A stretch of 39,980 nucleotides of DNA, taken from Nitrospirota bacterium. GTDB lineage: Bacteria; Nitrospirota; Thermodesulfovibrionia; UBA6902. The position numbers were made by a program, and so were the translations under genes. The notes under the pieces are model-generated. The model was not told the DNA's origin, searched no databases, and saw only the letters and a program-made list of their open reading frames with translations. Shown here piece by piece: positions 3,425-36,051 of the stretch (its first letter is position 1; each line of letters begins with the position of its first letter). The DNA is taken from contig JACRMS010000002.1 in assembly GCA_016214845.1 (NCBI GenBank), positions 1-39,980 of the forward strand, read 5' to 3'.

Positions 3425-5641
<2,217 letters not shown>

Positions 5642-9705: not shown

Positions 9706-10890
9706 CTATTTTCCCCCTCCCTCGGCTTCCAAAGATTTAACAGATTTCAAATTCTGTACGAGTTGAACCGTCCGTCGAAGAGTTTCAGGTATCGAATGCA
9801 AATACCGGTTCGTTGTTTCGATATTCTTATGCCCCATTATGTCCATCACTGATTTTATGTCCGCGCCGGCCCAGAGGGCATGAGTGGCGAATGTATGGCG
9901 TATCATGTTGGGGGTGACGTGATTATTCAGTCCTGCTTTTTCTGAAGCGGTCTTGAGGGACCGTTGAATGGATCTCACTGGGGTATCTGTGGTAGAAAAT
10001 ACCCACCTGCCTTTTTTAGCCTTGAAAAGGTCTTTTAGAATTTCCAGCGCCTCATCGCATAAAGGGATGGTCCTCTCTTCGTTAGTCTTGGGTTTCCAAT
10101 CGCCCTTCCCTTGCACCTTTACCGTTTCCAAATTGAAATTCACATCATTCCACGTGAGGTAAGAAAGCTCCGCAGGCCTCATTCCGGTAAGCCTTCCGAA
10201 TCTGATTCGCTGGGCGACCAGATCATATGAAAGATTTGCCGCCAATTTTTCAAATTCATCAGGAGTCACAAATGCGTTCAGTTTTTTGGGCTCCGGCAGA
10301 TGCGGGTATTTGATCCTTACGTCTTTGATATATTTCTTGCTGATTGCAAAGTTTCTGATCTTCCGGACTATTCCGATATAAATATTGACGGCCCGGTTTG
10401 AATATAAGCGTGATTGCTTTGGCTTACTATTTTTTTTTGAATTAGCTCTTTTAAGCTCAATATCTTTAAACCGTATCTGGAACTTTGGGGGGTTCTGGGC
10501 TTTTCTTATTTCTTTAAAGGGTATCTGTTCCTGTGACTTCTTGAGCCCCTGATAACGTATGAGAAGATCCTCATCGATTTCGTTTGAGGAATATCGGTAG
10601 AAGAAATCCTTTACGTGATTTATATAGTTAGGCCTTAATTTATAGGCATTTCTTTTCGATTTTGTTTTCTCTATATGGTCCAGATACTCTTCAGCGACAA
10701 CATGAAAATATAAACGGTCTCCGGTATCGGTTAGATCCGACACATTCAGCATCTTCAGTCTCAGTTTCGTTTTTAACTCTTCCTCGATCCTTTTCGCCTC
10801 GGACTTTGTATTTCCGGCCTTCCGGTTGACTCTGGTTCCGTTGAAAACGAAATCGATGTACCAACTGTTACCTCTTTTATAAACAGCCAA
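9706..10890 (-). CDS. Tyrosine recombinase (phage-type integrase)
   Basis: A 394-residue integrase. The N-terminus [14 protein letters not shown] is an arm-type DNA-binding domain, the middle a SAM-like core-binding domain, and the C-terminal catalytic domain is complete. It holds Arg of [13 protein letters not shown], Lys of [10 protein letters not shown], the HxxR of [11 protein letters not shown], His of IMGHKN and the nucleophile Tyr of NRYLHS. The start is TTG at 10890, with GGAGGT six bases before it. The gene begins 150 bases downstream of the 3' end of tRNA-Pro, the standard position for an element integrated into that tRNA. No excisionase, cargo or repeated tRNA end is visible in the 1.2 kb to its left, so it is probably a relic or a minimal element. 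Confidence 0.92.
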
Positions 10891-27536: not shown

Positions 27537-27950
27537 ATGCTAATAGAACAATATATGTTTATATCTTATCAGCCCCGCATTTTCATAATATTCACTTTTT
27601 TAATTTGTATATCTCTTTATATTGGAGGATGCACTGCAGCTCCGGGAAAAAGCGACGCCGATAGAGTAATAACAAAACATTTTGAAGCAAAAGGATACAG
27701 GGTAGTCGAGCTTAACACCGGTAATATCAATGCCGTACCGATGGGCGAAAAACAATACATGGGCACGCCCGGATATTATGTTGATGTGACATCTATGACT
27801 TTGGAAGTTTCCGTGAACATGAGGGAGAAGCCGAATTTCAAGCCCGGGCAAAAAATAACTTTTAAGAACGCCCGTGTTCTGGTCCGCCAACACACCGGAC
27901 CGGACAAAGAATGGGTCATCGCAAATATCATAGGGATATCCCTGCCATAA
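27537..27950 (+). CDS. Small predicted lipoprotein, function unknown
   Basis: A 137-residue precursor from ATG 27537 (GGGGG about four bases before it) or ATG 27555. A hydrophobic stretch FIIFTFLICISLYIGGC ends in a lipobox (IGGC). The mature part of about 107 residues is mostly beta: YRVVELNTGNINAVPMGEKQ, YYVDVTSMTLEVS and the C-terminal KEWVIANIIGISLP. The open frame extends to 27210 but that part is antisense to the TPR gene and is not credible. It lies 131 bases before the HEAT/HD-GYP pair on the same strand. I do not recognise the family. Confidence 0.65.
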   Translation: MLIEQYMFISYQPRIFIIFTFLICISLYIGGCTAAPGKSDADRVITKHFEAKGYRVVELNTGNINAVPMGEKQYMGTPGYYVDVTSMTLEVSVNMREKPNFKPGQKITFKNARVLVRQHTGPDKEWVIANIIGISLP

Positions 27951-28081: not shown

Positions 28082-30139
28082 GTGTTTGACTTAAAAGAAA
28101 ATGTGCCGCTTGACACCAGGTTGCTCAGTGAAGCAATTATTGAATTAAACATCTCCCGCCACAACGTATCCATTTATCCCCGTAACCACCCCATAGTAGA
28201 TACATCACTCAACAAGGCATTTGACCATTTACAGCAGCTTTTTGAATTGAGACAGGAAATCACGCTTGCAATAGCAAAAGACACCCTGATTATTGATATG
28301 CAGCACCTTGACAGGCAAAATCCGGTCTACAAGGATTTTGCCGCCTGCCTCAGCGGGATGAACATCGCTTCTGTGACATTTGTTCAGGGCTTGACAAAAG
28401 AAGAACTTTACTCATTTCACAGTTTCCTGCTGAAAAATATTCCTGACGAATTTGCGGGAGACATGCAGGAGTTTCTGGCAGAATATAACCTGGTCAATAT
28501 CAAAATCGGGTTTATAGATTATTCTGCGTTCATTATGACGGGATTGGAATCCGGGCAGACTGACACAGGGGAATCGCTTCTGGAAAAATATGTATACGGT
28601 CTTCTTGAGGGAAGTTTAGACACGGAAGACGCATATGACGTTCTGTTTAATATGCCTCCCGGACAATTCGCTGAACTGATAAACAATGCGGCCCCGGATA
28701 AAATCCGGGAAGACAGCTATGACAGGATAATCACTTCTTACATCAGGAGGTCCTCGGAAAGGGCGTTTTCCGGGAAAAAACTTGCGAAATTTCTCGGCTT
28801 TATTAATGACCTCAATCCCGGATTAAAGCAGCAGTTCCTGTCTTCTACGGCCAATGCCATGTCGCGTGATTTGACCTCTATTGAGAAATCTCTCAGGGAC
28901 ATGTCGGCAGACGATTTCATAGAGCTGTTCAGCATAATTAATGAGTATTCGGGGAGTATCCCGGAGGCGCTTAAAAATCTGCTCGACAAGTTCTCGGCAT
29001 ATCAGCAAAAACCTTCTTATGGCGGCGGGCTTGTTGAGGATGACATCTTTATATCTCCAGAAGTTGCCGCACTCTTTGAGAAAGCCAAATTCAGCGAATT
29101 TGTAACGGATTCATATCAGGCTGAAATTCAGCGTATTTTAAAAGCCGATACTCAGAAAGCCAGCGCCGAGCTGACAATAGCGTTCGCAAAGGAATGGAGC
29201 GATGAGCATATCGAAAAAGATTTTAACCGGATAATACTGGAGCTGCTTTCATCCGCCATACCGGACATTATTGACCGGGAAGATTACGGCTTGTTTGCCG
29301 GTATTCTGCAAGAGCAGATGGTACAATTCATAAACACCGGCCAGTACGGACAGGTGTTGAAGACAATCAGGACATTGGGGTCAAACGCCGATAACAGGCT
29401 GTCCTCTGTTGCGGTCCAATACTATAATTCTCCGCAGTTTATCTCCTCGCTGGTTGATTCGTTAAGGGTCATGGGCAGGCAGATGAGGGATGACGCCATG
29501 CTGCTTTGCGATTATTACGATGAAAAGGTCCTTCCCCCTTTGATGGATGCGCTTTTTGTTGAAGAGTCTCCGGCAACGAGGAAATTTATTCTAAGCGCAA
29601 TAACGCATTTTGGTTATAAAGCTGCTGATGAAGCCGTAAAACGTCTTGGCGACAAAAGGTGGTTCGTAACGAGGAACCTGCTCTTTATTTTGCTTGAATG
29701 CGGCAATGAAGAGGCGCTTAAACTGGCAAAGCCATTCTGCAATCATGAGAATCCCAAGGTAAGTTTCGAGGCGATAAAATGCCTGCTGAAGGCAAAGGAT
29801 GAGTATGGCATTACATCGCTCAGAAACTGTCTCAACCCGGAATCCGAAGAGCTCATTAAGAAAGCCCTTGACCTTGCAGGGGCCTTCAAAGTAAAAGAAG
29901 TTGTTACTGACCTGATCAAAATGCTGGAAAAAAGAGCAATGTTTGGGGCTGACTTTGAAAAAAAAATCCCTTTTGTGAGGGCGCTCGGACAGATAGGAGA
30001 TCCGGCCGCACTGGATACACTCAGAAACATTCTTAACGAGAAGTCTCTTTTTTTCAAAAACGCTCTCGACAGATTGAAAGAAGAAATAAAAAGGACCCTT
30101 AAGCATTATCCGGAGGAATCGGTTAAGGATATAAAGTAA
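28082..30139 (+). CDS. HEAT-repeat protein sharing an N-terminal module with the adjacent HD-GYP protein
   Basis: A 685-residue cytosolic protein starting at GTG 28082. Residues 15-125 form a module (IELNISRHNVSIYPRNHPIV, then DTLIIDMQHLDRQNP and GMNIASVTFVQGLTKEELYSF) that recurs in the next gene. The middle is helical with no recognised domain. Residues about 500-670 are HEAT/PBS-lyase-like repeats (FILSAITHFGYKAADEAVKRL, FVTRNLLFILLECGNEEALKL, FEAIKCLLKAKDEYGITSL, FVRALGQIGDPAALDTL). It has no enzyme motif, so a protein-binding or scaffold role is most likely. The HD-GYP gene starts 3 bases after its stop, indicating coupled expression. Confidence 0.8.
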   Translation: MFDLKENVPLDTRLLSEAIIELNISRHNVSIYPRNHPIVDTSLNKAFDHLQQLFELRQEITLAIAKDTLIIDMQHLDRQNPVYKDFAACLSGMNIASVTFVQGLTKEELYSFHSFLLKNIPDEFAGDMQEFLAEYNLVNIKIGFIDYSAFIMTGLESGQTDTGESLLEKYVYGLLEGSLDTEDAYDVLFNMPPGQFAELINNAAPDKIREDSYDRIITSYIRRSSERAFSGKKLAKFLGFINDLNPGLKQQFLSSTANAMSRDLTSIEKSLRDMSADDFIELFSIINEYSGSIPEALKNLLDKFSAYQQKPSYGGGLVEDDIFISPEVAALFEKAKFSEFVTDSYQAEIQRILKADTQKASAELTIAFAKEWSDEHIEKDFNRIILELLSSAIPDIIDREDYGLFAGILQEQMVQFINTGQYGQVLKTIRTLGSNADNRLSSVAVQYYNSPQFISSLVDSLRVMGRQMRDDAMLLCDYYDEKVLPPLMDALFVEESPATRKFILSAITHFGYKAADEAVKRLGDKRWFVTRNLLFILLECGNEEALKLAKPFCNHENPKVSFEAIKCLLKAKDEYGITSLRNCLNPESEELIKKALDLAGAFKVKEVVTDLIKMLEKRAMFGADFEKKIPFVRALGQIGDPAALDTLRNILNEKSLFFKNALDRLKEEIKRTLKHYPEESVKDIK

Positions 30140-30142
30140 GAC

Positions 30143-31234
30143 ATGACAACGTTAAAAAATTTCATCACGACATTTATGGTCGCCGTATCAAACTGCGCGC
30201 TTTATACAAAAGACCATGAGGCCTTTGACGAGCTGGCGAAGAATGCCTTTTCAGCTCTTAATGGACTGCTTGATGAAAGTTTTGAAATAATGATAATCGA
30301 AAACAACCTGATAATAAACAAGACGCCGGTCCGGGACGCCGGAATACATAATAGTAATCTTGTAAAGCGTCTCAGGAGAAAAGGCATCACACGTATCGAT
30401 TTTTTTAAGGGGGTGACCCTTTCAGAGGTCAAACAGATTATCATCGATTTTTCAACGCCCGGCAAAGGATTAACATCCTGCCCCCATATAAAGACAGGTA
30501 TTGTTGACGTTAACGTGAGCGCTCCGTGGCTGGATGCCGGCAGCATCCCCTTTTCCCCTTCGGACAATGTCGAAAAAGTGCAGAAGGTCTTTCATTCAAT
30601 ATCGCCTTTCAGGCAGCTTCCGGTAACAGAGCTTGAAGAAGTTGTGTTCCACTTTATCGCAACTTTCAAAAGAGAAGCGAACATCCTGAAAGTCCTGAGC
30701 CCGGTAAAGGCTTTTAGCGAATATACTTACACACACGCAACCAACGTCTCTGTACTTTCGATATTTCAGGCGGAATCCCTTGGCATAAAAGACGAACTCT
30801 TGCGTGATATCGGCATCTCGGCTTTACTGCATGATACCGGCAAGATGTTTGTTCCAAAGGAAATCCTCGAAAAAGCGGGCGCTCTCGATGACAGGGAATT
30901 TGCCGAGATGAAGAAGCATCCGCTTTACGGCGCGAGATACCTCGCAAAGATGAATGATGTCCCCAGGCTTGCCCCTGTTATTGCATTTGAGCATCATTTG
31001 AAATACGACGGCTCCGGATATCCCGGACTTTCCATGGAGGGAAAAAGACAGCACATCGGCAGTCAGATTGTCGCCATCTCCGATTTCTTTGACGCCCTCC
31101 GCACTCACAGGCCCTACAGGAAAAGCGTCGACGCAAAGACTATTTTAGTAATGATGGAAAAAAGCGCGGGCAGGGATTTCAACCCGTTCCTGGTCGATAA
31201 TTTCATAAGAATACTTCAGCCGGTAATTAATTAG
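30143..31234 (+). CDS. HD-GYP domain phosphodiesterase
   Basis: A 363-residue protein. Residues 1-125 are the module shared with the HEAT protein (VAVSNCALYTKDHEAF, NNLIINKTPVRDAG, KGITRIDFFKGVTLSEVKQI). Residues about 185-360 are an HD-GYP domain with ISALLHDTGKMFVPKEIL (HD pair), KKHPLYGARYL, FEHHLKYDGSGYPG and DFFDALRTHRPYRK. All expected metal and GYP residues are present, so c-di-GMP hydrolysis is likely. There is no receiver or other named sensor domain; the shared N-terminal module may be the input. It ends the plus-strand operon before a strong terminator. Confidence 0.9.
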   Translation: MTTLKNFITTFMVAVSNCALYTKDHEAFDELAKNAFSALNGLLDESFEIMIIENNLIINKTPVRDAGIHNSNLVKRLRRKGITRIDFFKGVTLSEVKQIIIDFSTPGKGLTSCPHIKTGIVDVNVSAPWLDAGSIPFSPSDNVEKVQKVFHSISPFRQLPVTELEEVVFHFIATFKREANILKVLSPVKAFSEYTYTHATNVSVLSIFQAESLGIKDELLRDIGISALLHDTGKMFVPKEILEKAGALDDREFAEMKKHPLYGARYLAKMNDVPRLAPVIAFEHHLKYDGSGYPGLSMEGKRQHIGSQIVAISDFFDALRTHRPYRKSVDAKTILVMMEKSAGRDFNPFLVDNFIRILQPVIN

Positions 31235-35517: not shown

Positions 35518-36051
35518 TCAATTGCTCAGTTTTTTAAGTTGTTCCTTCAGCGGTGTGTATTCCCTGTTGTCATTTGCGCATATGACGACTTCCTTGATCT
35601 CCGATCCGTTCTTTAAATATTCGGCGATGGTTTCGGTCGTGATCTTTGCGCTCTCATCCAGAGGCACTCCGTAGAAGCCGGAACCCATCGGCGGGAACGC
35701 GATCCTCTCAACGCCGTTTGATTCAGCGACCTTCAAGGCGTTGAGGATGGTGAGCTTCAACTTCTTCACTGTGTCCTGCTCCTGAAATTTAGGGCCTACC
35801 GCGTGAATGATCTTCTTCGCCTTCATTCCGCCGGCGGTTGTGATCACCGCGTCAGTGACATTTACCGGGCCGAGATTTTCGAGCTCCTTCCTTACTGTCG
35901 GGCCTCCCCTCAGGGCGATTGCATTTCCGAAACCCGAGCCGAGTTTCAGGTCATTGCGCGCGTAAAACACGAATGCGTCAATCTCCGTGTCGGTGATGTC
36001 GCACTGCTTCACGCTAAGCGTTTTGTTTTTGATCTGGACTTTGTCAGACAT
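35518..36051 (-). CDS. Macro-domain protein (ADP-ribose binding)
   Basis: A 177-residue single macro domain, which binds ADP-ribose or O-acetyl-ADP-ribose and may remove ADP-ribose from proteins or nucleic acids. VKQCDITDTEIDAFVFYARN is the first strand with the catalytic-loop region. The usual NAAN is replaced by YARN, and SGFGNAIALRGGPTVRKE is the first binding loop. IIHAVGPKF and FPPMGSGFYGVPLDESAKI form the second (Gly-rich) loop. AAGGAGG lies 9 bases before the ATG. It is 95 bases before the tmc-like membrane subunit gene, separated by a REP-like unit, so shared regulation is uncertain. Confidence 0.9.
   Translation of the reverse strand: MSDKVQIKNKTLSVKQCDITDTEIDAFVFYARNDLKLGSGFGNAIALRGGPTVRKELENLGPVNVTDAVITTAGGMKAKKIIHAVGPKFQEQDTVKKLKLTILNALKVAESNGVERIAFPPMGSGFYGVPLDESAKITTETIAEYLKNGSEIKEVVICANDNREYTPLKEQLKKLSN

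Follow-up and report, generated by a model that had tools for sequence, protein, structure and literature searches.

An HD-GYP enzyme is commonly taken to be one protein whose sensor and enzyme parts share a chain. The HD-GYP enzymes of known structure that come closest to the protein described here are PmGH from Persephonella (PDB 4MCW), PA4781 (4R8Z) and V-cGAP3 (5Z7C). V-cGAP3 is a phosphodiesterase for 3′3′-cyclic GMP-AMP (3′3′-cGAMP), so HD-GYP substrates are not limited to cyclic di-GMP (c-di-GMP). The subject of this work is a pair of adjacent genes found in a 39,980 nt stretch of DNA from a Nitrospirota bacterium (contig JACRMS010000002.1 of assembly GCA_016214845.1; the whole stretch is referred to as the window). 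The upstream gene codes for a protein with HEAT repeats (the HEAT subunit) and the downstream gene for an HD-GYP protein (the HD-GYP subunit; coordinates in Table 1). Here the HD-GYP protein is accompanied by a conserved partner in which no enzyme domain is recognisable, the two proteins share an unnamed N-terminal domain (the module), and a change in the active-site motif accompanies these features.

Several described systems were compared with this locus. The HEAT subunit has in common with bacterial HEAT and PBS-lyase HEAT-like repeat proteins its C-terminal repeats, which score above the Pfam cut-off, but is set apart from other bacterial HEAT proteins by the N-terminal module, a long conserved middle region and the HD-GYP neighbour. 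The HD-GYP subunit has the same domain as PmGH and PA4781 by Pfam, sequence and fold, with seven metal ligands and the GYP motif intact, but differs from them in reading HHL for HHE, in the unnamed module at its N-terminus and in the conserved HEAT partner gene. In the SiaC–SiaD system a diguanylate cyclase is activated by a partner protein, according to the part of PMC8457831 consulted. The likeness lies in the idea of a c-di-GMP enzyme under a dedicated partner; the enzyme class is another one, and in the window pair both partners bear the same domain. By title and the start of the abstract, no paper in the open-access literature searched had the HEAT/HD-GYP pair or the module as its subject. 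We regard the locus as a variation on a known theme: the enzyme domain is a familiar one, its motif is systematically changed, and it comes with a domain that has no name and a partner gene that is conserved.

The two proteins carry homologous N-terminal modules

Profile comparison confirmed the homology of the two N-terminal modules, in agreement with the earlier note on this DNA, which had described one module in both genes. With hhalign, residues 16–148 of the HEAT protein matched residues 5–124 of the HD-GYP protein over 120 columns (probability 99.3, E = 3.3e-20); the profiles had been built from 70 HEAT and 67 HD-GYP sequences, a near-copy (L082) being omitted from each. The best of 19 controls (a reversed profile, eight other slices of the HD-GYP protein and ten other slices of the HEAT protein) reached a probability of 1.5 and E = 0.034. 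The motif pattern given in the earlier note was right in that the N-termini do align, but the letters quoted were a loose consensus present literally in neither protein. The corresponding stretches read NVSIYPRNHP, LIID, NIASVTFVQGLTKEE and IKIGFID in the HEAT protein, and NCALYTKDHE, LIINKTP, GITRIDFFKGVTLSE and IKTGIVD in the HD-GYP protein. That motif looseness, and the marginal match obtained when the two single sequences were compared by BLASTP (E = 0.011, 21/95 identical), would be in keeping with chance or convergence. Such an explanation is nevertheless extremely improbable, given an E-value near 3e-20 against 19 negative controls, its repetition with a different selection of rows (E = 7e-22) and the outcome of a search of the whole window genome (3.45 Mb in 41 contigs, 96% complete). 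There, the HEAT-module profile found the HD-GYP gene at E = 8e-9 and the HD-GYP-module profile found the HEAT gene at E = 1.7e-14, and neither profile detected further copies of the module beyond these two adjacent genes at E-values up to 1.

The 17 other HD-GYP matches in the window genome all start at query residue 136 or later, and neither the module nor the HEAT profile was found in 79 other HD-GYP loci (L002–L080), which had been retrieved because they resembled the enzyme half. Among the positions best conserved across 216 modules were the Tyr (95%) and the His (81%) of an [LI]Y[PS]xxH motif, the Gly and the Glu of a GhTxxE region (84% each) and a later Ile (85%). The N-termini of both window proteins gave no match above cut-off in Pfam or NCBIfam. 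In scans of 44 module sequences, every Pfam family matched at most two of them (best E 0.0022) and every NCBIfam family at most one (best E 0.0064). Profile searches of the PDB with the module gave no convincing match to a solved structure; the designed protein Octarellin V.1 (whole-sequence E 2e-6) and a cytochrome trimer (5e-5) were rejected, each match consisting of three repeated stretches of 8–11 bits, none individually significant. The module is probably an alpha/beta domain of ∼130 residues. Two low-confidence models of it both begin helix-helix-strand-strand-helix-strand, an observation that was excluded from the evidence.

The remainder of the HEAT subunit holds no recognisable catalytic domain. 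Pfam HEAT repeats are confined to its C-terminus (HEAT_2, E 4.8e-14, 52.8 bits against a cut-off of 27.7; HEAT_PBS, 25.6 against 20.9 bits), full-length relatives are present in the class, and the C-terminal region contains a D.RWfV.RN stretch conserved in the 70 aligned sequences.

The pair is conserved and inherited as a unit

The earlier note had stated that its idea of a two-part unit would be refuted if no conserved pairing existed elsewhere; the pairing proved to be widespread. In the window, both genes lie on the same strand and in the same frame, and the HEAT stop codon is separated from the HD-GYP start by three bases (GAC), a spacing already reported in that note and borne out by the open reading frames (ORFs). 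The closest pair available comes from a metagenome-assembled genome (MAG) titled ‘Nitrospirae bacterium’ (locus L001), in which the HD-GYP protein is 94% and the HEAT protein 88% identical to those of the window. Loci L001 and L081–L230 contained 139 ORFs with module and HEAT repeats, 12 of which were excluded because the locus ended. Of the 127 left with downstream room, 119 had a module gene directly next to them, on the same strand and no more than 400 nt away, and the other eight had none. Removal of four duplicates left 115 pairs; an HD domain was visible in 101 of the partners, and the other 14 run off the locus end. The median gap was -4 nt, and 113 of the 115 gaps were of 40 nt or less, figures in which overlaps are overstated because each ORF was extended to its earliest possible start. 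Loci L081–L110, L171–L180 and L181–L210 were the best matches returned; the further loci were hand-picked from match lists, some of them for variety.

The two genes also occur together at the level of genomes. Among 200 genomes of the class, a strong HD-GYP match was found in 74 of the 76 with a strong HEAT match, compared with one of the 124 without (75 genomes with HD-GYP in all, 123 with neither strongly); a match counted as strong at E ≤1e-30 for HEAT and E ≤1e-26 for the HD-GYP module, cut-offs chosen after the tables had been seen. In both HEAT-only genomes the HEAT gene runs into a contig end, and in G009, the sole genome with HD-GYP alone, the expected position is occupied by a HEAT gene that has diverged (L149).

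In a tree of the 216 modules (fast IQ-TREE method; some rows are long), the HEAT/HD label changed once among 202 labelled rows. Counted against all 216 rows, the HEAT label changed four times and the HD label twice, compared with a mean of 71.6 for shuffled labels. The tree favours HEAT-type and HD-type modules as its two sides, which would make them old, distinct paralogous forms. For 11 genomes with several pairs, it was asked whether the partner of the nearest foreign HEAT gene is the nearer one to the right partner. Of 24 tests, 22 by the HD module (one a near tie) and 23 by the HD domain showed the partner to follow the HEAT gene to which it belongs, with genome assignments that were typed by hand and are incomplete. 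Module distances of the two halves correlated at 0.80, against a maximum of 0.17 in 200 shuffles.

The HD-GYP half keeps its metal ligands and lacks the HHE glutamate

The HD-GYP subunit matched Pfam family HD_5 at E 2.8e-22 (79.7 bits against a cut-off of 27.2), the HD domain being seen by Pfam from residue 195 onward only. Its closest solved relative by sequence is PmGH (E 1e-27 over residues 179–358). The HD domain of its AlphaFold2 (AF2) model had a predicted local distance difference test (pLDDT) score of 81–94 over residues 191–360, except in one 10-residue block (66 at 291–300), and Foldseek matched the model to 4MCW with E 5.7e-12 and probability 1.00. The second best PDB sequence match was V-cGAP3, which keeps HHE in the printed alignment; this match starts at window residue 188 and leaves the module unaligned.

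Seven metal ligands are common to both HD-GYP groups, an eighth, in an E/D-T-G motif, defines one subgroup, and Y-T-Y is among the motifs given for the other, the Y/F subgroup (PMC4159591, in the part consulted). The window protein has the seven shared ligands (H198, H230, D231, H259, H284, H285 and D314), invariant in 67 of 67 aligned sequences, as are the HDxGK lysine and the GYP motif. The eighth is absent, E185 of PmGH corresponding to Tyr194 in a Y-T-Y motif, which places the protein in the Y/F subgroup and outside the eight-ligand (trinuclear) one. An automatic count found the seven ligands intact in 98 of 101 partners; of the three that failed it, one (L108) was intact on reading and two were genes found in two ORFs. 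HD-GYP partner genes split into two ORFs were seen at L113 (809–1927) and L143 (921–2011).

The HHExxDGxGYP motif reads HHLKYDGSGYP in the window protein. Among the 96 partners of the family that could be read at this position, the glutamate of HHE was replaced by L, M, I or V in 88 and by T, K, Q, R or Y in eight. As controls, it was kept in 83 of 83 readable ordinary HD-GYP ORFs of loci L002–L080, which had been retrieved by patterns not spanning the HHE motif, and in 17 of 17 other HD-GYPs of the window genome. The HHE change, judged from these alignments, goes with the module and the partner; of the new facts obtained it is the most specific. It also qualifies the description of the HD-GYP protein in the earlier note as a catalytic c-di-GMP phosphodiesterase: the fold and the seven metal ligands agree with it, but HHE is systematically HH(L/M/I), and enzyme activity is therefore not to be taken for granted.

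Pair and module extend beyond the class

The HEAT module profile matched 143 of 295 genomes sampled from the phylum, the class included. A broad module profile of 44 rows (A7) matched 6 of 31 genomes reached via other loci. It also matched 79 of 198 genomes in the phylum of G378 (reached via L002, titled Deltaproteobacteria), 53 of 149 in that of G396 (via L046, titled Planctomycetota) and 83 of 187 in that of G403 (via L068, titled Deltaproteobacteria). G378 contains two HEAT/HD-GYP pairs, and more were found within its group. At 20 further loci (nine from the G396 group, eleven from the G403 group), selected for two closely spaced module matches, the second module gene followed the first on the same strand in 20 of 20. 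The second gene had a detectable HD domain in 19 (not in L308), and HEAT repeats were found by profile in the first gene of 14. As recognised by these profiles, the pair is present in at least three groups, namely Nitrospirota, MAGs titled Deltaproteobacteria and a Planctomycetota-titled group. In an automatic alignment, some metal ligands were missed in the HD partners of L292, L294–L297, L300, L301, L303, L305 and L307, possibly degenerate HD-GYP halves in loci where the pair is kept.

At least three rough length classes were distinguished (in amino acids, HEAT plus HD): ∼685–850 plus ∼360–430, ∼500–550 plus 450–470, and ∼565–610 plus 475–505. The second sits behind a gene of 260–274 amino acids, tatA, tatC and a gene of 77–94 amino acids in six of the seven loci L151–L157. 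The tatA–tatC-linked pairs are those of L151–L153 and L155–L157, and the conserved gene of 77–94 amino acids fits no Pfam family.

Profile matches also showed the module to be reused on other signalling proteins. At L171, L174, L178 and L231 it forms the N-terminal part of proteins that also have REC and SpoIIE domains (REC falls below the Pfam cut-off in L171 and L174). These module-REC-SpoIIE phosphatases come from MAGs titled Planctomycetota or Candidatus (Ca.) Brocadiia, or from the same group. At L168 (2920–4734) the module is part of a module-PAS-HisKA-HATPase kinase; a REC-HD-GYP response regulator (137–1198) lies on the same strand 1.7 kb downstream of it. Tandem modules stand mid-chain with GGDEF, AAA_16 and HEAT at L219 (550–4893) and L221 (1539–5501). 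These two proteins of ∼1300–1450 amino acids, in the order GGDEF-AAA_16-module-module-HEAT, are fusions of a diguanylate cyclase domain and an ATPase. L222 is similar, GGDEF not being seen in its fetched stretch, and in L220 two modules accompany HEAT. HEAT-type and HD-type profiles give the tandem modules roughly the same score, so that these are not recognisable as a fused HEAT/HD pair. Finally, a protein of 1680 amino acids at L223 (1514–6556) has the order module, HEAT, cyclic nucleotide monophosphate (cNMP)-binding and PilZ, which joins the module to a c-di-GMP receptor domain.

A proposed two-part signalling unit and its alternatives

The reading we prefer, to which we assign a probability of slightly more than one half, is that the products of the two genes form a single signalling unit for cyclic dinucleotides in the cytosol, joined through the module, the HEAT half being regulatory and the HD-GYP half hydrolytic or partner-dependent. 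The ∼130-residue module at the N-terminus of each half would most likely join them, a HEAT-type module with an HD-type one, and may additionally bind a ligand or partner that sets the activity. The HEAT subunit, through its repeats, would serve as the regulatory or docking part. The HD-GYP subunit would hydrolyse c-di-GMP or 3′3′-cGAMP, probably at a binuclear metal site, or might alternatively be a partner-dependent form of phosphodiesterase; the latter is considered because no readable member of the family has retained the HHE glutamate. Counted in favour of this reading were the homology of the modules and their restriction to these two genes of the genome, the constant gene order and co-occurrence, the split between HEAT-type and HD-type modules, the joint inheritance of paralogous pairs, the HD-GYP fold with its metal ligands, the occurrence of two modules in tandem within single HEAT-bearing chains, and the module on SpoIIE proteins, a PAS-HisKA kinase and the HEAT-cNMP-PilZ protein. 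In Nitrospirota, GGDEF domains flank nine of 87 pairs (eight distinct loci, L113 being counted twice) compared with 1.6 expected from 5.6 per Mb, an enrichment that is suggestive only.

Several observations weigh against such a unit. The module was not confidently folded: structure prediction of four modules gave a mean pLDDT of 39.9, and the module part of the AF2 model of the HD-GYP protein was nearly all below 50, so that its HD domain alone was usable. Eight module-HEAT genes are without a downstream module partner, three of them being giants that themselves have two modules. The distribution is patchy: four of ten listed genomes of the genus to which the window belongs have a strong pair. 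The GGDEF enrichment stems from about three or four lineages (L111, L113 and L118–L120 share close relatives of one GGDEF gene), and no GGDEF was found in the fetched flanks of the window pair (1.5 kb upstream, 0.4 kb downstream). The HHE glutamate is absent in 96 of 96 readable partners (of 101). All seven ligands are kept in nine of the 19 HD partners sampled from the G396 and G403 groups, a count from automatic alignment in which gaps may inflate the failures. The HD half of these two groups seems often to be degenerate and, with the glutamate lost and the ligands incomplete in this sample, catalysis is not the constant feature of the family.

The same facts can be arranged differently. In a more specific form of the preferred reading, the pair would be a two-subunit phosphodiesterase that lacks the HHE glutamate and depends on the module-docked HEAT subunit to complete or gate its active site, and the module would be a new, widely used paired signalling domain, with SpoIIE phosphatases, a histidine kinase and GGDEF-AAA-HEAT proteins among its other users; this we put forward tentatively, as a possibility that falls well short of even odds. 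The chief rival takes the module for the relic of an old duplication, serving each protein as a homodimeric sensor of a ligand, with the genes kept together for the outputs of an operon and the proteins never touching. A general sensor would be expected on many unrelated outputs, as the module is; there are module-HEAT proteins that stand alone, and contact between the halves is what the preferred reading has to suppose. We nevertheless judge this rival to be rather unlikely, since near-constant adjacency and order in many lineages, the inheritance of pairs as units even among paralogues, and the separation of the two module lineages together exceed what shared regulation usually needs. A further alternative, that the HD-GYP half is a pseudo-enzyme or a cyclic-dinucleotide receptor which binds without cutting, the pair then being a binding or scaffold complex, accounts directly for the fact that all readable members have HH(L/M/I), or a different residue other than E, and for the ten of 19 sampled G396 and G403 partners in which the automatic alignment missed ligands. 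It is made improbable by the retention elsewhere of the seven ligands, the HDxGK lysine and GYP noted above, which points to selection for metal chemistry or for tight metal-dependent binding.

The module would, on these findings, be a new signalling domain, present in at least the three groups named above, and would provide hints of function for proteins otherwise recognised solely by their HEAT or HD part. The family would also offer a natural test of the role of the HHE glutamate, a residue that is not among the PmGH alanine variants named in the part of PMC4159591 consulted.

Coordinates and neighbouring genes

Table 1. Position in the window of the two genes and of the parts of their products
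Feature	Position	Strand	Description
HEAT subunit gene	28082..30139	+	ORF, GTG start, 685 amino acids; module, middle region and C-terminal HEAT repeats
Shared module, HEAT subunit	28127..28525	+	Residues 16–148; IYPRNHP motif at residues 31–37; hhalign to HD-GYP N-terminus
C-terminal HEAT region	29402..30136	+	Residues ∼441–685; best Pfam stretch of HEAT_2 518–595, HEAT_PBS 632–652
HD-GYP subunit gene	30143..31234	+	ORF, ATG start, 363 amino acids
Shared module, HD-GYP subunit	30155..30514	+	Residues 5–124; profile comparison and whole-genome profile search
HD-GYP catalytic domain (predicted)	30704..31216	+	Residues ∼188–358; AF2 model, Foldseek match to 4MCW, metal ligands
HHL replacing HHE of the HD-GYP signature	30992..31000	+	Residues 284–286
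GYP, intact	31016..31024	+	Residues 292–294; all three residues unchanged across 67 aligned sequences

A small lipoprotein gene upstream of the pair (27537–27950), which the earlier note thought might belong to the unit, was rejected as a third part. Among the loci compared its sole match was its own copy, and no homologue was present at any other locus, including that of the closest pair available, L001, which has radA upstream and no lipoprotein gene. Elsewhere in the window, a Macro-domain protein is encoded at 35518–36051 and a phage-type integrase, perhaps marking the edge of a mobile element, at 9706–10890. A protein of 737 amino acids with two peroxidase stretches is encoded at 3425–5638 and resembles a catalase-peroxidase.

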